Virus record (IMG/VR): IMGVR_UViG_3300031857_001224
Span: 1-25,795 of that record
DNA length: 25,795 nt
Strand: one strand, 5' to 3'
Source of the DNA: a virus
Shown here: piece by piece, positions 3,865 to 23,080 of the stretch
How positions within the stretch are numbered: the stretch's first letter is position 1
How the letters are laid out: the number at the start of each line of letters is the position of its first letter
Position numbers and translations under genes: made by a program
The notes under the pieces: generated by a model
Told to the model about the DNA's origin: nothing
The model's input: only the letters and a program-made list of their open reading frames with translations
Database searches by the model: none

Positions 3865-5025
3865 TTAGGGCTTTTCTTTGATGCCGAAGGCGCTGTTTTT
3901 AGGGTCAAGGTATTTCACCAATACCTGCAACCCTGAGGCAAGCCCTGCCGAAAGCACCGTGCGGAAATCGCCGCCGCTAATGTCAAGCAGGGGAATGCCC
4001 AACCCAAGCGCCACCGAAATGCTCACCGTCACAAAGGTGCGCACAAATTCAATCAGCGCCTCATCAATCCCGGTGTTGTCTTTGATGTATCGAATGAATG
4101 TCAACATTTTTGCGGGCACACCTTTCACCTTTGATGCAGCCGCCGCCGCACCTGTGGCGGCTGTAAGCGCCCTCCCGCTGACCGCCTCCCAATTTACACC
4201 CTCAAGAGCCTTGCCCACCTGATCTGCCACGCTAGGTGTTGCGGGCTTTGGTGCGGCCTGTGGGGCTTCAACCTTCGGCGCAGGCTTCGGCGCGGCAACG
4301 GGCGTTGGCGCAGGCTGTGGCGCAGGGGTTGGCTGTGGCTGTGGTGCAGGCGTTGCAACCGGGGCAACAGGTGCAGGGGCAGCCTTACGCGCAGGGTGCG
4401 TGACAATGAGCAGCGCCTTGAAATCCTGCTTCAGCTTGCCCGCCTTCACCTTACTATTTGCGATCTGCCGCAATTGATCTTCGGTGACAGGCACCGCGTA
4501 TTTCTCAGCGGCGGTTTTCTCATCGCGTGTTGGGCAGGCCCATTGCCACCCGTGATCTTCACACCACCCCGCTGAGGTCATGTGCCCATACCCTGCAACA
4601 AGCTTCTGAGGCGCATGCTTGCCCCACCATTTGCGCCAACGGTCATGCCACGCGCTGATCGGTACGCCCGCGGGATACCCAACAGGCTGTTGCACCCACA
4701 CCATCAATGCTGCGCCCTGCTTCGCTGCCTCTACGGCATCGGCCCATGATTTGGCATAGCGGGCTTTACCCCCAAGCACGGCAATTGTTTTGGCGGCTTC
4801 AGGCAGAGAGCCGCCCGCATCGCTCACGCCCTGTTTGTCTTTTCGCCCGGTGGCTTTCTCGAATGCCGCAACACCCTGCGCGGCGGTGTAGGTGACGGCG
4901 TACCCGCTCGCCCATGAAACGGCGGCGGCGCATGATGACCATGTGCAATCGTCAAGAATCTGATTGGCGCCCTTCAATTGGGCTTCGGAATCGGCGTACA
5001 ATTGTGAGGCCACTAGGTATCTCAC
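3865..5025 (-). CDS. Endolysin: cysteine peptidase fused to holin-like tail
   Basis: A 386-residue protein in three parts. Residues 1-205 look like a papain/C39-like peptidase or amidase: Cys27 in DDCTWSSCAAAVSW is the likely nucleophile, with His148 in GYGHMTSAGW and an acidic residue near 157. Residues 212-270 are an Ala/Pro-rich linker (DNA 4216-4392). Residues 285-386 hold two hydrophobic helices, about 327-347 and 357-371, and end LDPKNSAFG, like actinophage r1t-type holins. A lysin carrying its own holin-like membrane domain is unusual; it may be membrane-tethered. The GTG at 5025 overlaps the preceding stop as GTGA. Peptidase versus amidase activity cannot be decided from sequence alone. 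Confidence 0.8.
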   Translation of the reverse strand: MRYLVASQLYADSEAQLKGANQILDDCTWSSCAAAVSWASGYAVTYTAAQGVAAFEKATGRKDKQGVSDAGGSLPEAAKTIAVLGGKARYAKSWADAVEAAKQGAALMVWVQQPVGYPAGVPISAWHDRWRKWWGKHAPQKLVAGYGHMTSAGWCEDHGWQWACPTRDEKTAAEKYAVPVTEDQLRQIANSKVKAGKLKQDFKALLIVTHPARKAAPAPVAPVATPAPQPQPTPAPQPAPTPVAAPKPAPKVEAPQAAPKPATPSVADQVGKALEGVNWEAVSGRALTAATGAAAAASKVKGVPAKMLTFIRYIKDNTGIDEALIEFVRTFVTVSISVALGLGIPLLDISGGDFRTVLSAGLASGLQVLVKYLDPKNSAFGIKEKP

Positions 5026-5276
5026 CCTGCAACCTCAGCCTTGATCATCATTGCGATGGCACGGGCAGCCGCCTCATAGTCAAGCGCGCCGCTCACGGGG
5101 TGCCCTTCGGTGACGCCTTCGGCGTAATCGTTGCCATCTTCAGCGCGGCGCCACAGGGTGCCACCAAACGCGGTGTGCGTATCATTCGGCACCACCGCCA
5201 CCCATTCGCCCGGCGCAACGGCAACGCGCGCCCAACCCTGCGCCGCTACCTCTTCGATGTAATCGCTAAACGTCAT
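5022..5276 (-). CDS. Hypothetical protein in lysis region, 84 aa
   Basis: No family recognised. It is a soluble protein beginning MTFSDYIEEVAAQGWARVAV, with several Trp residues, a predicted beta-rich middle and a C-terminal helix EAAARAIAMMIKAEVAG. The ATG at 5276 shares its A with the preceding TGA, and AAAGG lies 5 bases upstream. It sits between a two-helix membrane protein and the lysin, so a regulatory or accessory role in lysis is possible but unproved. Confidence 0.65.
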   Translation of the reverse strand: MTFSDYIEEVAAQGWARVAVAPGEWVAVVPNDTHTAFGGTLWRRAEDGNDYAEGVTEGHPVSGALDYEAAARAIAMMIKAEVAG

Positions 5277-5455
5277 CAACCTTTACCCCATCTCAACGGC
5301 CCTGTGATTGCCCAAAGGGCGATCAATCCCAAAATGCATGCGCCTACAAAATCGCGCGTGCCAGATTCTGGCAGCACGATCCAAGCCACCATCATGCCCA
5401 ACCATGTGAACGATGAGGCGGTGAAATCCAAAACAAAATCAATCAGGTGCTTCAC
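5276..5455 (-). CDS. Two-helix membrane protein, candidate holin, 59 aa
   Basis: A short gene starting at GTG 5455, overlapping the preceding stop as GTGA and ending in TGATG with the next gene. The 59 residues start MKHLIDFVLDFTASSFTWLG and contain two hydrophobic segments, roughly residues 16-29 (SFTWLGMMVAWIVL) and 36-52 (FVGACILGLIALWAITG). The end PLRWGKG is basic. Size, topology and position just upstream of the lysin fit a small holin or antiholin. No holin family is firmly recognised. Confidence 0.7.
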   Translation of the reverse strand: MKHLIDFVLDFTASSFTWLGMMVAWIVLPESGTRDFVGACILGLIALWAITGPLRWGKG

Positions 5456-6492
5456 GGTTTCGCCTTTCGTGAGCCTCCAATTGACGATGCCGCCGCGGCT
5501 GCCGCCGCTGCCGCTTGGGCAACCTGCGTGACAATCACGGCGGGCACAATTGTAGCGGCTGCTTTCTCTTTTTCTTCAGGCGTTAGATCGTGTCCAAGAT
5601 TGGCAACGAATGCCGCGGCCTGCCCTACCGCTTCGCTGACCGCTGCCGCCGCCTCACCAATGGCAGCCGCCACCTCTTCAGCCGCCGCGCCGGGGTCAAA
5701 GGGCACAGGCTCAGGGGTGGGCTCAACGGTGGGCGAAGGCGTGGGCTCAGGGGTCACGCTAGGGCTCACCTCAGGCGAAGGCTCAGGCGTAGGGGTTTGC
5801 GCCACGGTGGGGCTAGGTGAGGGCGATTCAGGGGCAGGGGGCGGGGTTGGGCTAGGCGAAGGCGTAGCGGGGCTAGGGGAGGGCTCTACGCTAGGCGCAG
5901 GGCTAGGCTCAGGGCTAGGATCAGGGCTAGGGCTAGGTTGAGGGCTATTAGTTGGCGAAGGCTCAATGGGTGGCGTGGGCTCATAGGTGGGCACCTCTTC
6001 GCTAGGCTGCACGCTAGGCAGCGGGGTTGCCTCCGGGCTAGGGTCAGGGGAAGGCTCAGGGCTTGCAGGTACAAAGGCGGGGTCACTAATGGTGAGCACC
6101 CCCGCGCCGCAACAGGTATCAACCGCCCACACGCCGAAGCCGTACACGTCACCCGGCTGCACCTCAAATTGAATGCCGCCATTGCCTTGCACGCCTTCGC
6201 TCATGAGATCGGTGGCAACGCCATTGATCAAGAATTGCGGCCGATCGAAATGCGCCGAATCGGTGGTGGCGTATTCCCAAAGCAGCCACACCGTGCCCGC
6301 TGCATCGGCCGTGGTGGTGTAGGTGGTGACGTGAGAGCCGCCGCCACCATCGGCACCCGTGATGACAAAGCCACCGTCAATGAGCTGCACGGTGCCATTG
6401 GCGGTGGTGGTAAATACCCATTCAGCCGCGGCCACAGGTACGGCACGCCACAAAACGAAAGCGGCAAGCAGCGGCAAGAGCACGCGCCGCAT
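5452..6492 (-). CDS. Secreted Ser/Pro-rich protein with beta-sandwich domain
   Basis: A 346-residue protein with a signal peptide (MRRVLLPLLAAFVLW, then RAVPVAAAE). A beta-rich domain spans about residues 23-140, with alternating Thr/Gly strands, a WLLWEYATTDS segment and an unusual Cys-Cys pair in VDTCCGAG. A long Pro/Ser/Glu linker follows (about 142-267). The Ala-rich helical end includes GHDLTPEEKEKAAATIVPA and a run of Ala before a basic tail. The beta domain resembles secreted adhesion-like modules, but no family is certain. The ATG at 6492 overlaps the previous stop as TAATG with AGGGC upstream. Secretion into the cell wall or display from it is inferred. Confidence 0.75.
   Translation of the reverse strand: MRRVLLPLLAAFVLWRAVPVAAAEWVFTTTANGTVQLIDGGFVITGADGGGGSHVTTYTTTADAAGTVWLLWEYATTDSAHFDRPQFLINGVATDLMSEGVQGNGGIQFEVQPGDVYGFGVWAVDTCCGAGVLTISDPAFVPASPEPSPDPSPEATPLPSVQPSEEVPTYEPTPPIEPSPTNSPQPSPSPDPSPEPSPAPSVEPSPSPATPSPSPTPPPAPESPSPSPTVAQTPTPEPSPEVSPSVTPEPTPSPTVEPTPEPVPFDPGAAAEEVAAAIGEAAAAVSEAVGQAAAFVANLGHDLTPEEKEKAAATIVPAVIVTQVAQAAAAAAAAASSIGGSRKAKP
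5692..6069 (-). repeat. Low-complexity Ser/Pro/Glu codon repeat
   Basis: This stretch encodes the linker of the secreted protein and is made of irregular short repeats of PSP, PEP and TPEP units, with DNA words such as GGGCTAGG and GGCTCAGG recurring on the plus strand. Such tracts can change length by slippage or recombination. They also generate long spurious open frames on the opposite strand. Confidence 0.85.
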
Positions 6493-6677
6493 TATTTGCC
6501 CTGTGATTGCAGCCACGCCAAAAGCGCGCCGATACCCCCAACACCTAGCATGGCGCCCAATGCGCGAAGCACCGCCAACCCGCCTTTCATTTGATCAATC
6601 TCTGCCTTCAGGGCATCGATCTTTTCGCTCTGCGAATCAAGCCGGGCAATGATTTGTTCAGCCTGTGTCTTTGTCAT
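6492..6677 (-). CDS. Coiled-coil membrane protein, holin-like, 61 aa
   Basis: Residues 1-35 form a heptad-like helix (QIIARLDSQSEKIDALKAEI). They are followed by a hydrophobic glycine-rich segment LGAMLGVGGIGALLAWL and a short polar end. This architecture resembles XhlA-type lysis accessory proteins and small phage membrane proteins at the tail/lysis boundary. The ATG at 6677 overlaps the previous stop as ATGA, with only a weak GAGC upstream, so expression is probably coupled. Confidence 0.7.
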   Translation of the reverse strand: MTKTQAEQIIARLDSQSEKIDALKAEIDQMKGGLAVLRALGAMLGVGGIGALLAWLQSQGK

Positions 6678-16198: not shown

Positions 16199-17704
16199 CT
16201 ACCCCTTGAGCTGCTCCAATTTGAGGCGGGCTGCCACAACCGTGTGGTGCTCACCCATTGGTGCAGGCTCAGATTCGATCGCCTCAACCTCAGCGGCTGC
16301 ACCCAATCGGGCGCGCACGGCATCAAGCAGGGCGGTTTGGTCAGCGTCAAGATCGGTGCCCGCCTTGACGGCTTCAAGGGTTTCAAGCAGCGCATCACCG
16401 TCAACGCCAATTCGCGTTGGCGCAATCTTTCGCACGGCTGTGAGCCCTAGCGTTGCCGGGTATGCAGGCTGATGCCCTGAGAGCGTTGACACCTCGAGCA
16501 GCCCAATTTCGGTGAGGGTGCGGCTGCCGTCATCATTCCAAACCTGCCCATTCTTTGGCACGGTGAAGCCGAAGCTCATGCCCATTGCCTTTGATTCGTT
16601 TTGCAATTTTGAGATGACGGCGGCGGCGTCAGGATCGGCAGGGTCAAGGCGTGCCTCAACCTTCAAGCCCACCGCATCTTCGGTGAGGCTCAGGCGCCCG
16701 CTTGCCGTGGTTGCAAGCATGCGGCTTTCATCATGACCGTGCAAGAATTTGATGACGCGGCGGCCCTGCTCAGCCTGCTTGATTGCACGGCTGAACGCGC
16801 CCTGCGCGATGCGTTCGATAAACGGCAGCCCCTGCGATTCCGCGCCGAAAACGGCAGCGTACCCCGTAAAGGTTTTCTGCCCATCTTCGGTGTCGCTCAC
16901 CGTGAATTCGCCCAATGGTAGGGCGCGCATTTCATGTTCACGTGCCATCGCGTTGATCTCCTTTTGTGCCGCCTCCGCTGTGATTCTATCTGCCCACGCC
17001 AACACACGATCGGCGCCGTTTGTGTCTACGGGATTGACGCCCCAAAGCAGCGCGGCCACGGCTCCCGGCGCGGGAAAATCAGGGTGCTCAGCATCGCTAT
17101 TCTGAGGCACGCCTTCCCAATCGCCGCGGTGCCTGCGAATCCATGCTGACATTCGCGCCACCTTTTCATCGTCAACCTCACCCGCGGCAAGCTGCCGCGC
17201 TTCGCGCACGGTTTGATCCTGCAAGCCTTCGCCCCCAAGCCCGCCCTCATACGCCTCAAGCCCCGCGGTTGCGGCGGCTGAAACATAGGCAGGCACGGTG
17301 ACGATGGCGCGGCTCTCTTCGCGCAGCGCCTCTTCAGGCGTGTATGCCTCAATGCCTAAACCGCGCGCCATGTCGCGCACGGCGGGGTCATTGTCAATGG
17401 CGTATTCGATTTCATCGCCGTATTCTTTGGCAAGCAGGCCGTATTTGTATTCTTTGAATGCAAGCCCGGTGGCAAAGGCGCTGCCCTCAAAATCATTCAA
17501 ATGGATTTCGTCAACACCTGCAACGCCATGCTCTTGCAGCCATGCGCGGGTTTCGGTGAGGCGGTCAATCTTGCGCGCGCTGACAATCAAAATCTGCGCA
17601 TCACCGCTCATCACCTGATCATTCAGGTGATCGATCAGCGGCTGATTCGGCGCGTCATTCTCAAGAATCAACGTGCCGTCAAGGTCAACGATAATGTAGC
17701 TCAA
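16199..17704 (-). CDS. Three-domain protein: HAD phosphatase, helical module, prohead protease
   Basis: A 501-residue fusion. Residues 1-130 are a HAD-type phosphatase: Asp7/Asp9 in VDLDGTL, Ser42 in IVSAR, Lys84 or Lys87, and Asp104/Asp106 in AIDNDPAV. Residues 135-245 form a helical module (TVREARQLAAGEVDDEKVAR, RMSAWIRRH, ending AALLWGVNP) that I recall from other phage head-region proteins. Residues 258-425 match the HK97 prohead protease: TFTGYAAVFG, His324 in LHGHD, Ser377 in MGMSFGF and PAYPAT. The end looks helical. The TTG at 17704 overlaps the portal stop as TTGA, with GAGGAG upstream. A phosphatase with all catalytic residues inside a capsid protease is unusual. Confidence 0.88.
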   Translation of the reverse strand: MSYIIVDLDGTLILENDAPNQPLIDHLNDQVMSGDAQILIVSARKIDRLTETRAWLQEHGVAGVDEIHLNDFEGSAFATGLAFKEYKYGLLAKEYGDEIEYAIDNDPAVRDMARGLGIEAYTPEEALREESRAIVTVPAYVSAAATAGLEAYEGGLGGEGLQDQTVREARQLAAGEVDDEKVARMSAWIRRHRGDWEGVPQNSDAEHPDFPAPGAVAALLWGVNPVDTNGADRVLAWADRITAEAAQKEINAMAREHEMRALPLGEFTVSDTEDGQKTFTGYAAVFGAESQGLPFIERIAQGAFSRAIKQAEQGRRVIKFLHGHDESRMLATTASGRLSLTEDAVGLKVEARLDPADPDAAAVISKLQNESKAMGMSFGFTVPKNGQVWNDDGSRTLTEIGLLEVSTLSGHQPAYPATLGLTAVRKIAPTRIGVDGDALLETLEAVKAGTDLDADQTALLDAVRARLGAAAEVEAIESEPAPMGEHHTVVAARLKLEQLKG

Positions 17705-20940: not shown

Positions 20941-21288
20941 CTATTCATGCGCAGATTCTAACCCGCCCCCCCTATGTTGCGTCACCTTGCCGTGGCAAGA
21001 GCGGCAAAGCACGCGCAAAAGATCTTTGGGCACCACAGGGCTTTGCCCCGGTTGCAGGGGGTACACGTGATCAACGGTGAGGTTGGCAGGGCTGCCGCAT
21101 CTCTGGCACCACGGGTGTTCACGCCTCATCTCCGCGCTCAGGCGCCGCCATGCAGGGTCAGCGTAGGGCTGAGGGCCGCGCTCACGCTGCCGCTTTGCCG
21201 TGATTTTATTTGCGCAGGTACCGCATCGGTTGCCTATGCGTTGCAACACGCCACAGGTCAGGCAGGCGCGGGCAAACCTAAGCGGCAC
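20941..21288 (-). CDS. HNH endonuclease
   Basis: A 115-residue HNH nuclease. An N-terminal zinc ribbon (CLTCG ... RCGTC) precedes the HNH core: CQRCG at 61-65, Asp73-His74 in TVDHVYPL, and LRVLCRSCHGKVT with Cys95, Cys98 and His99. HNH proteins next to terminase genes assist the large terminase in cohesive-end cleavage in HK97-like phages. The GTG at 21288 gives the typical start PLRFARACLTCG and overlaps the previous stop by 11 bases. An upstream in-frame start at 21327 is less likely. Confidence 0.92.
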   Translation of the reverse strand: MPLRFARACLTCGVLQRIGNRCGTCANKITAKRQRERGPQPYADPAWRRLSAEMRREHPWCQRCGSPANLTVDHVYPLQPGQSPVVPKDLLRVLCRSCHGKVTQHRGGGLESAHE

Positions 21289-21763
21289 GGGGTTTGAAAT
21301 TCGGCAGGGGCAAACGCTCAGCCACAATGAAGCTCAGGGCTTCGCATACCCTTTCGCTTTCGGTATCAAATTGAGAATCAAACAGGCTGAACGCCTCAGC
21401 CCCCAAGATGCCATCAAGGTGCGCCACCATTCGATCAAGGGCGTGATGGTGCACGTGCATCAATTCGTGGGCAAGCACCCGGCGCTGCTCACGCGGCTTG
21501 AGCTTGAAGAAATCGTTTGATAGGCGAATGGTTGCCACCCATAGGTTGGCGCTCACCTCAATGTCAGCCCACGCATCATCGGGCGGCAGATCATCGCTCG
21601 CCTTCAATTCCCATTCGGTGAGGCGCATGATGCCGCGGTTGGCGTTGAGGTATGCGGTGACGCGCTCACGCGGTGTTGGGGTGTTAGCCGCCCGCGCGTG
21701 GGAGGATTCACGCGCGGGCGGGGGGCCGCCACTAGGTGACGGCGTGCGCCGATTGTATGCCAT
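21278..21763 (-). CDS. HEXXH zinc metallopeptidase
   Basis: A 161-residue protein with His99-Glu100-x-x-His103 in LAHELMHVHH, followed by acidic residues in TESERVCEALSF that could supply the third ligand. The first 35 residues are Pro/Ser-rich and disordered. The fold resembles phage and SprT/ImmA-like minimal metallopeptidases. The ATG at 21763 shares a base with the preceding stop (TGATG) and has GGTGGG upstream. The preceding gene encodes an HTH protein, recalling ImmR/ImmA pairs where a peptidase inactivates a repressor. No substrate can be stated. Confidence 0.78.
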   Translation of the reverse strand: MAYNRRTPSPSGGPPPARESSHARAANTPTPRERVTAYLNANRGIMRLTEWELKASDDLPPDDAWADIEVSANLWVATIRLSNDFFKLKPREQRRVLAHELMHVHHHALDRMVAHLDGILGAEAFSLFDSQFDTESERVCEALSFIVAERLPLPNFKPRAA

Positions 21764-22242
21764 CAATCCCACCGATCAGGCGATGACACACGCTTTGTGT
21801 GCGCATTGCCTTTCAACGGCAGCGGTGATGCCGGGCGAAGCACGCAGGTTGCATCGGGGCAGCGTGGCGTTTTGCCTTCGCCTGTATCCCCACCAACGCA
21901 CCAATCACAAAACCTGTTCACCAACATTTGCAATCGGCGTGCCTCTTTCTCTGCCGCGCTGAGCTCAGGGCGCTTCGGTGAGGTGTACGGCTTGGGGAGA
22001 TCCTCACGGCTCACCCAATCATCATCTTCAAACGGCCCGAAGGCTTGGGCGAAGATGAAACAAAACCGTTCACTAGGGCGGCGCTCTGCCTTCGCATAGG
22101 ATCGAATGGTGCGGCCTGTGATCTCAACGCCGCATTCACGCATGTGGGCTGCCACCTTTTCTGAAGCCACCACCGCTGTTGAGCCGGGGTATGCCTCAAG
22201 CACCCGTTTGTTGATTACCTCAGGGCGCAGGCTTCGGCTCAT
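21763..22242 (-). CDS. HTH protein with C-terminal zinc motif
   Basis: A 159-residue protein. The N-terminal 70 residues (VINKRVLEAYPGSTAVVASE, then TGRTIRSYAKAERRPSERFC) look like a helix-turn-helix domain. The C-terminal part carries Cys112, Cys115, Cys128 and Cys133 (CDWC ... RCPDATC) followed by RPASPLPL, a zinc-motif layout I recall from phage DNA-binding proteins. The ATG at 22242 overlaps the previous stop as ATGA, with GGTGG upstream. It may regulate transcription or bind packaging DNA. It is directly upstream of the HEXXH peptidase. Confidence 0.72.
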   Translation of the reverse strand: MSRSLRPEVINKRVLEAYPGSTAVVASEKVAAHMRECGVEITGRTIRSYAKAERRPSERFCFIFAQAFGPFEDDDWVSREDLPKPYTSPKRPELSAAEKEARRLQMLVNRFCDWCVGGDTGEGKTPRCPDATCVLRPASPLPLKGNAHTKRVSSPDRWD

Positions 22243-22703
22243 GGGAGCACCACCAATGCAATGGGCATGACGCCGCGCCCTAGCGGTACGCCTAGCGCCT
22301 GCCATACCTCAGGGCTCAGATCAATCAGCCGATCATCATTTGGGTTGGCACGCTGCCCATAGCAGGTGCAAACGTCAACCACCTGAACGATGACGCTGCG
22401 CCCCGTCAACAGGCTCACCACCTCAACGTTCCATGACGTGCGCCATGCGTGCGGCTTGAAGGCGCGCACCTCAGCGCCAATGGCGCCGTAAAGGTCAATG
22501 CCTGCCCGCGTGTACCACGTTGAGAGATTGCGGCGGTCAGCGTCATACCACGTTGCCGTTCCTACGAAATACCCAAGCGGCACAGGCGGCTGATCGGCCA
22601 ACACGCCCATGGCGTAGTTTGGCGGCGGTGCCGCGGGCTCACCCGTTGGCACAGGGTTTGCGATCGGCGCAAAGATCAGCGCCAACACCAATGCAATTTT
22701 CAT
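22239..22703 (-). CDS. Secreted RlpA-like double-psi beta-barrel protein
   Basis: A 154-residue protein with a signal peptide (MKIALVLALIFAPIANPVP) and a Pro-rich spacer. A double-psi barrel follows, with TATWYDADRR, YTRAGIDLYGAIG, SLLTGRSVIVQVVDVC and DDRLIDLSPEVWQALG, matching the RlpA pattern in which the IDLS aspartate is a key residue. RlpA-type domains include septal peptidoglycan lytic transglycosylases and expansin-like wall binders. Activity here is unproved. The ATG at 22703 has GGGAGGG upstream. Its presence among DNA metabolism genes, not the lysis block, suggests early wall remodelling or a moron. Confidence 0.82.
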   Translation of the reverse strand: MKIALVLALIFAPIANPVPTGEPAAPPPNYAMGVLADQPPVPLGYFVGTATWYDADRRNLSTWYTRAGIDLYGAIGAEVRAFKPHAWRTSWNVEVVSLLTGRSVIVQVVDVCTCYGQRANPNDDRLIDLSPEVWQALGVPLGRGVMPIALVVLP

Positions 22704-23080
22704 TTCGTGCCCTCCCTGCTTTGTAGCAGCTCGATCAGCGCCGCCCATGAGATCACCACCATGCGGCGGCTCTTGATGCCTGAGCCGGGGGCATCTTCAA
22801 CCACTAGGGCAGCCACCTCATCGGCCTTCGGCTTCAATTCGTTCAACCATTTGTCATAGCGTTCAGAATAGGCGCCGCCTTTCTTCGCGCTGATTATGAT
22901 GCCAATGCCGCGGGCGTCAACCTTCCCGCCGTATTGCCCCACCCGCTCACCTGCCAACCCTGCTTCGGTGAGCTCAGCCGCTAGGCGCCTTTCAAGCCCG
23001 TTGCCCCTTTGCCTATTGTTTTTCCCCCGGCGGCGCGCTGCATTCTGCGCGTCAACGTCAAGATCATTGGTGCGCGTCAT
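22700..23080 (-). CDS. Resolvase-like nuclease family protein
   Basis: A 126-residue protein. The pattern RQRGNGLERRLAAELTEAGL, then KVDARGIGIIISAKKGGAYS and RMVVISWAALIELLQ, resembles Hjc/VRR-NUC-like PD-(D/E)XK nucleases, with Glu in LERR and Asp in VDARG. The usual E-x-K is ISAKK, so the catalytic Glu appears replaced by Ser while Lys remains. It could be inactive or use another acidic residue. The ATG at 23080 overlaps the previous stop as ATGA and has only a weak GGGGTG site. Confidence 0.6.
   Translation of the reverse strand: MTRTNDLDVDAQNAARRRGKNNRQRGNGLERRLAAELTEAGLAGERVGQYGGKVDARGIGIIISAKKGGAYSERYDKWLNELKPKADEVAALVVEDAPGSGIKSRRMVVISWAALIELLQSREGTK

Follow-up and report, generated by a model that had tools for sequence, protein, structure and literature searches.

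The window analysed here, an IMG/VR virus record of 25,795 bases that is possibly a fragment, carries a siphophage-type gene set (terminase, portal, head protease, major head protein and tape measure) and, on the minus strand, which an earlier note on this DNA had not specified, a single reading frame in which a lysin runs into a holin-like domain (Table 1). The protein is laid out as a peptidase domain (residues 1–211), an Ala/Pro-rich linker of about 90 residues and a two-helix membrane hairpin, and its AlphaFold model (mean pLDDT 73.7) shows three parts: a folded domain that reaches about residue 211, an Ala/Pro stretch with little order and a helical C-terminus. Judged from this sequence and its relatives, the gene is a natural lysin–holin gene fusion of a kind shared by a group of uncultivated phages, and we regard the fusion together with the homology of its C-terminal half to separate holin genes as close to certain. 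The earlier note had proposed a lysin joined to a holin-like domain, and this is borne out in that the same two parts are adjacent separate genes in relatives.

Table 1. Features of the lysis region, in positions of the window
Feature	Position	Strand	Basis or remark
Lysin–holin fusion ORF	3865..5025	minus	GTG start, 386 aa, one frame
C39/papain-like cysteine peptidase (putative lysin) domain, residues 1–211	4393..5025	minus	AlphaFold model, VIA-align, invariance, stand-alone version in split loci
C27 codon	4945–4947	minus	Peptidase active site
H148 codon	4582–4584	minus	Peptidase active site
Fusion-specific linker, residues 212–302: Ala/Pro-rich disordered part, then helix with LG-[KR]-V-D-[WF]-G-like motif	4120..4392	minus	AlphaFold, alignment
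Shine-Dalgarno-like AAAGGTG, spacing 11 nt upstream of internal ATG	4119..4125	minus	Duplex −7.5 kcal/mol
Alternative internal start GTG, residue 303	4117–4119	minus	Predicted
Putative internal start ATG, residue 307, for free 80-aa holin	4105..4107	minus	Predicted
Holin-like domain, residues 307–386, two-helix membrane hairpin	3868..4107	minus	Homologous stand-alone genes directly behind lysin; BFVD 'Holin' matches
Predicted membrane helix 1, residues 320–341	4003..4068	minus	AlphaFold model, hydropathy
Predicted membrane helix 2, residues 351–373	3907..3975	minus	AlphaFold model, hydropathy
85-aa soluble protein between 59-aa gene and lysin, overlaps lysin start	5022..5279	minus	Likely start ATG at 5276
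59-aa two-helix membrane protein, candidate second holin or antiholin	5276..5455	minus	Hydropathy, two peaks; conserved upstream
354-aa Pro/Ser-rich secreted or membrane protein, same gene row	5452..6516	minus	Hydrophobic N- and C-terminal stretches
61-aa protein, coiled coil and one hydrophobic helix, possible accessory membrane protein	6492..6677	minus	No family above cut-off

The two halves of the protein and their surroundings

The structural matches of the modelled N-terminal domain in VIA-align are papain-fold proteins, the best being the pseudomurein endoisopeptidase PeiR (8z4h; Z 11.6, rmsd 3.5, 150 aligned), with the C39-like peptidase 3erv (Z 10.0, rmsd 4.2, 157 aligned) and the PCAT1 peptidase domain 7n87 (Z 9.7, rmsd 3.7, 134 aligned) also among them; the peptidase domains of PCAT1 and ComA lie at Z 8.8–9.7. 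The Cys/His peptidase-like character described in the earlier note holds up well: in the AlphaFold model C27 opens a helix and H148 lies within a strand, and both are invariant (171/171 and 172/172 rows with a residue there, from 174 aligned); C32 is kept in 115/171 rows only. A Cys-Pro-Thr-Arg segment (CPTR) occurs in 173/173 rows with a residue there, and four more distant fused relatives (L254, L255, L260 and L261) have the textbook motifs, ADPT here and DDCG or DSCGP around the nucleophile. The third active-site position, which is assigned to the CPTR/ADPT column by alignment inference, appears to be a Cys in most of the family and an Asp in the distant members, and Cys as third residue would, if confirmed, make for an unusual triad. 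No peptidase family was matched by this domain in Pfam, PHROGs or NCBIfam; a Foldseek search of predicted viral proteins with the N-terminal part gave as best matches proteins of 211 and 267 residues (48–53% identity). By modelled fold and Cys/His pair the domain is a C39/papain-fold cysteine peptidase, and from the fold, the catalytic residues and the place of the gene we infer a putative wall-cutting enzyme.

At the other end of the protein, the two hydrophobic helices that had been proposed are supported by hydropathy and by the two model helices of Table 1. The Kyte–Doolittle 19-mer score peaks at 1.98 over residues 331–349 of the window protein and the second peak is weaker, helix 2 being weakly hydrophobic, and in the relatives scored the second tail peak is at least 1.05 in 80/80; as far as sequence can tell, the C-terminus is not the soluble one that the earlier note had named as evidence against its proposal. 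The charges, taken as averages, are net −1 in the inter-helix loop and net +2 in the C-tail, with an N-side (net −1 with 2.6 positive residues) that is ambiguous taken alone, and they would favour a cytoplasmic location for both hairpin ends. When compared by Foldseek with the predicted viral proteins of BFVD, the C-terminal part matches proteins of 79 and 130 residues named Holin (62–65% identity), and the top three matches of a stand-alone holin model are also so named (two at E < 1e-5, one at 0.02), the name being an annotation and not a test. Among the matches that VIA-align listed for the holin model (best Z 5.9) there was no holin, a result that counts neither for nor against.

Two details of the earlier description have to be given up. 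The protein terminates in LDPKNSAFGIKEKP and not in LDPKNSAFG, and the label of an r1t-type holin finds no backing: profile PF16945 matched 0/10 records at E ≤ 10, the window among them, gave no match at E ≤ 1 in single proteins (hmmscan) and does not figure in the family matches of 32 members. The fold match is weak as well, the first r1t-type name among the BFVD matches of the stand-alone holin standing at rank 10 (E 0.8), where helical hairpins match many things. Membership in the r1t-type family was rejected for want of a PF16945 profile match. What was found is a small membrane protein with two hydrophobic helices that is encoded with a lysin; it looks like a two-helix holin in appearance and gene place and would, by these tests, form a family of its own. 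Its function as a holin is probable, hole formation being expected from homology to the stand-alone gene downstream of the lysin in relatives.

Both families lie outside the collections searched. Against Pfam, PHROGs and NCBIfam, neither half was convincingly matched, and the whole fused protein, scanned together with 32 members, gave weak matches only, some of them low-complexity ones in the linker; tail-protein, TonB and SOG2 identities for the linker were rejected as low-complexity Ala/Pro matches. The stand-alone holins gave nothing above cut-off in Pfam and PHROGs. Among 50,697 sequenced phage records there were no matches for the whole protein, the split lysin or the split holin as queries, and the C-terminus as query returned five rows only, at E 0.6 to 7. 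Foldseek of the fused-protein model against the PDB found nothing at E ≤ 0.001 (best E 0.026).

The genes upstream of the lysin form an overlapping row, which is headed by the 61-residue protein. Counted over loci with enough upstream sequence, the 59-residue protein is found upstream in 84/92 fused and 30/33 split loci, the 85-residue protein in 63/92 and 5/33, and relatives of the 354-residue protein in 63/92 and 17/33. The 59-residue protein had no family above cut-off in Pfam, PHROGs or NCBIfam. Since it is present in most loci, lysis in this phage probably involves more than one membrane protein, and it is mainly because of this upstream two-helix protein that we make no claim that one polypeptide does everything. 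The 61-residue protein matched phrog_1193 ('hemolysin') at E 0.17 only; we take it to be reminiscent of the XhlA-type accessory lysis proteins.

Several features elsewhere in the record may be mentioned. A head maturation protease (16199–17704, minus; protease residues about 121–419) has an N-terminal polynucleotide-kinase-phosphatase-like domain (residues 2–122; phrog_415, E 5.8e-11), which makes it another unusual gene fusion in the record, beside that of the lysin. A 169-residue protein (22239–22748, minus) with a hydrophobic N-terminus and an RlpA-like double-psi beta-barrel (PF03330, E 4e-8) lies far from the lysis genes and is a possible wall-active or secreted protein, and a zinc-metallopeptidase-like protein (21278–21772, minus; IrrE/M78, E 8.3e-5) lies upstream of the terminase region. 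Among the window proteins scanned, which are part of the ORFs of a record that may be a fragment, no further canonical endolysin family turned up. The tRNA scan of the window found none, and neither the promoter nor the terminator scan departed from chance by more than about one and a half standard deviations. The terminase most like the window's comes from Pontimonas phage phiPsal1 (42%), whose lysis genes (an M23 endolysin and a separate holin) differ in kind from those described here.

One lysin–holin pair in fused and in split form

A scan of viral contigs with the whole protein gave 193 related stretches, a number far above what chance would give, and the best 80 of these are, without exception, single-frame fusions of 367–397 residues with both end domains. 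With the C-terminal piece as query there were 197 stretches, of which the best 80 comprise 46 split loci, 33 fused loci and one that is cut off. With the other scans added, 181 of 182 sequences were classified, one being dropped as partial, into 128 fused and 53 split (134 distinct sequences: 87 and 47), counts that depend on the queries, include some contigs under two locus ids and are not frequencies. A scan with a hairpin profile found 436 relatives, and the best 80 added 78 further locus ids (68 split, 10 fused), none of which had the hairpin without a lysin of the same kind directly upstream.

In the split relatives the lysin and the holin are two adjacent genes with the hairpin gene second. 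The separate hairpin gene stands beside the lysin in 53/53 and 68/68 split loci, and in the former set its ATG falls at −12 to +25 nt from the lysin stop in every case. Split lysins either stop where the peptidase domain does or go on into a shorter Ala/Pro tail, and the split holins begin MYSDIKAGIRWIIDNTG... or MNKIKWIMDNTG... The stand-alone hairpin proteins are up to 91% identical to the C-terminus of the window protein, identity being 84–91% for the main split group and 46–65% for the group of L097 and L098.

The linker is specific to the fused form. It is absent from the split lysins shown, in whose loci the lysin stop and the holin ATG are separated by gaps of 8–13 nt, and the fused proteins compared share some form of it, including two with clearly different peptidase domains (31–34% identity for L254 and L255). 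In the 125 complete fused rows that were aligned, from 128 with three incomplete rows left out, the linker columns hold 82–110 residues (median 99, window 100), of which 39% on average are Ala or Pro, and a conserved LG-[KR]-V-D-[WF]-G helix lies near the linker end. The Ala/Pro linker of the earlier note is in this way confirmed, residues 217–264 of the model being mostly below pLDDT 50.

Trees were built from 60 representatives of 174 rows, seven of the 181 sequences having been left out as too short. The peptidase tree has one clade that is fused in 46/46 rows and another with 11 split and 3 fused, and needs at least two changes between the fused and split states, and in the hairpin tree, which has few columns, fused and split rows interleave and four changes are needed, at least three of them forced by well-supported branches. 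Given an interleaved hairpin tree and a clade-wise peptidase tree, we read the pattern as one linker–holin half that may have met several lysin modules by recombination.

In many split lysins (L097–L103 and L184–L209) the C-terminus is an Ala/Pro tail that contains a single CPACGGTG(I/V)KK-like motif, which is presumably half of a DnaJ-type zinc finger, and the partner holins shown for them have a DTDGDGIPDELAG tail like the calcium-binding TSP3 repeat, below the Pfam cut-off; possibly the motif and the tail form a lysin–holin contact. A scan of bacterial genomes returned one locus, L082 (RFQY01000166.1), on a 6-kb contig in a Rhodobacteraceae MAG, which encodes a fused protein about 82% identical to that of the window. 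Compared by eye this contig seems to be phage throughout and of the same kind as the window, and the binning may be wrong; the MAG is not counted as host evidence.

A start codon kept inside the fused gene

An in-frame start codon lies within window columns 300–313, where the separate holin genes begin, in 125/125 complete fused ORFs. The best duplex with the 16S tail is at or below −6 kcal/mol, a cut chosen by the analyst, at 98% of the fused junctions and in 19% of the background windows that hold a start (14-codon windows, 1106 of 2125 with a start). Mean duplex energies are −8.6 for the internal starts, −8.5 for the split holin starts and −7.4 for the ORFs' own starts. Among 49 representatives, methionine makes up 52 of 427 junction residues and 7 of 4226 linker residues, an approximately 70-fold enrichment. 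Under a fixed rule for the choice of start, the real 15 bases upstream beat the mean of synonymous recodings in 43 of the 49 representatives (−8.72 against −7.25), six failing the comparison, and a version that took the best of several starts gave 45/49; these figures are to be read with the knowledge that the Lys, Glu and Gly residues at the junction bias the codons towards Shine-Dalgarno-like strings and that the sequences are related, not independent. Codon identity at position 299 reaches 95% of same-residue pairs (mean 50%), a value to which little weight is given, the neighbouring codons being not unusual. Ten fused loci fetched later all have an ATG 92–99 residues from the end, with energies of −5.6 to −13.3, and seven of the ten add new sequence, since L258 and L259 repeat the protein of L018 and L228 repeats that of L104.

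The family as a whole has, then, an in-frame start with a ribosome-binding signal at the domain border. In the window itself this signal is weak, being no stronger than in synonymous recodings (−7.5 against −7.8), so that a second product is less sure for the window's own phage. Had the fusion done no more than overwrite the former stop, ribosome site and start, the start would be expected to decay, and in these sequences there is no decay. Since the former holin start still has its start codon and Shine-Dalgarno-like element, two products are probably made from the gene, and we lean, by a little, towards the view that these would be the tethered lysin at full length and, free of it, a holin of about 80 residues.

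Proposed mode of lysis and known systems

Four other explanations of the gene were weighed. It is conceivable that the hairpin serves as a membrane anchor only and that the upstream 59-residue protein is the holin, or a pinholin, that frees or activates the lysin; this protein has two hydrophobic peaks and is present in nearly all of the fused and split loci counted above, and the authors of the Enc34 study, in the part of that report available, speculate on tethering and pinholins (PMC8943055). For a mere anchor, however, one would not expect split relatives to encode the hairpin separately behind the lysin, nor the fused genes to keep a start codon for it, and we consider this explanation unlikely. 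Somewhat less likely again is that one polypeptide does both jobs and that the internal start is a leftover. M4Lys when overproduced would provide a precedent, since it is described, in the text available, as lysing E. coli alone and as needing its C-terminal transmembrane domain (PMC7143992), and the unremarkable internal signal of the window points the same way, but a leftover sits poorly with a junction start codon in 125/125 and 10/10 fused ORFs across very different peptidase domains and with the roughly 70-fold excess of junction methionine over the linker.

That the enzyme is no lysin at all, being instead a membrane-bound C39-type protease with another role such as leader-peptide processing, export or phage exclusion, might be argued from the PCAT1 and ComA domains among its structural matches and from the lack of another canonical endolysin family among the scanned part of the ORFs of this record, which may be a fragment. 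Against this, the best match is a wall endopeptidase, PeiR, the gene adjoins small membrane proteins, every split locus pairs its stand-alone form with a holin-like gene, and a C39-like domain is a described endolysin module in the N5 account as available (PMC3314691); we hold a non-lysin role to be improbable. The chance of an assembly or gene-calling artefact, in which two genes were joined by a frameshift or lost stop codon, is practically negligible. The earlier note had named an artificial frameshift as what would undo its proposal, and the existence of the split arrangement in relatives might invite the thought, but an artefact was rejected on finding that the best 80 of the 193 relatives are all single-frame and that the linker of 82–110 residues is without counterpart in the short gaps of the split loci shown.

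The explanation that we prefer, and think rather probable overall, is a lysin–holin fusion with two products in which a tethered enzyme would be released through holin holes. The N-terminal C39/papain-like peptidase would cut the host wall. With both hairpin ends predicted to be cytoplasmic and no signal peptide, the enzyme would sit on the inner face of the membrane, held there by the hairpin, and the membrane would contain a mixture of the tethered lysin and the free holin until, at a set time, the holin array would collapse into holes. The enzyme, on its leash of about 90 residues, might then pass the opening and cut the wall beside the hole, a picture of the leash that we offer as plausible while judging it somewhat more apt to be wrong than right. 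More tentative still is the idea of a one-gene lysis clock, whereby the ribosome-binding site within the lysin frame would set the ratio of free holin to lysin–holin in a mixed array, the hole edge would carry the enzyme on a leash of set length (82–110 residues), and the lysin module would be repeatedly swapped on the same linker–holin half. The same lysin and holin exist both as a gene pair and as a single gene, which provides natural controls in which the effect of fusion is directly measurable, and the proposal supplies a function hypothesis for two protein families present in hundreds of viral contigs without a match to a curated profile or among the sequenced phages searched.

Some components of this arrangement have precedents, which are cited here from the parts of the reports available. 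The endolysins of the chivirus group (Enc34 ORF39, M4Lys and Siskin) need a C-terminal transmembrane domain for lysis on overproduction and, like the window fusion, have an N-terminal catalytic domain, no signal peptide and a C-terminal transmembrane domain, of two helices in Enc34 (PMC8943055, PMC7143992). Their catalytic domain is lysozyme-like (PHA02564), the matches of the window's model being papain-fold, and their hosts are Gram-negative, and those parts of the reports describe no homologous stand-alone holin, long Ala/Pro linker or internal start (PMC8943055, PMC7143992). The route by which a C-terminally membrane-anchored endolysin reaches the wall is treated there as an open question (PMC8943055, PMC7143992). 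A natural holin–endolysin fusion of the TpeE family is encoded at a bacterial locus in six isolates of Clostridium sporogenes, and in it, too, a holin is translationally fused to its endolysin; as far as the available text goes, that fusion is holin-first, with one transmembrane and one amphipathic helix, and its families are unrelated (PMC9527704).

For the catalytic half, the endolysin of mycobacteriophage N5 has a C39-like module of the same fold class, whose HHpred partner is a B. anthracis C39-like peptidase, and our PDB match 3erv is likewise described as such a peptidase (PMC3314691). L5 gp10, a lysin checked by its authors, has, by the available part of the same paper, no transmembrane domain, in contrast to the window fusion (PMC3314691). 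The r1t-type holins (PF16945) are likewise small, with two hydrophobic helices, and encoded beside the lysin, whereas the window hairpin has no profile match to them and weak fold similarity only.

Internal translation starts are described for the endolysins Ply2638A, for which there is a fitness effect, Lys170, CTP1L and Ms6 (Lysin384/Lysin241), again from the available text (PMC12203907, PMC6116114). There, as is predicted here, a single frame of one gene yields a long and a short protein that have the C-terminus in common; the shorter of the two is the wall-binding or amidase portion of the enzyme in those systems and would be a holin in this one (PMC12203907, PMC6116114). In the open-access literature searched, this family was not found described, nor was a lysin–holin pair that exists both fused and split, nor an internal start that would release a holin. 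Already known, therefore, are lysins with two C-terminal helices, a holin–endolysin fusion in the reverse order and internal starts in lysins; new is the in-frame internal start found in every complete fused ORF at the position where the separate holins start, nearly always with a Shine-Dalgarno-like element.
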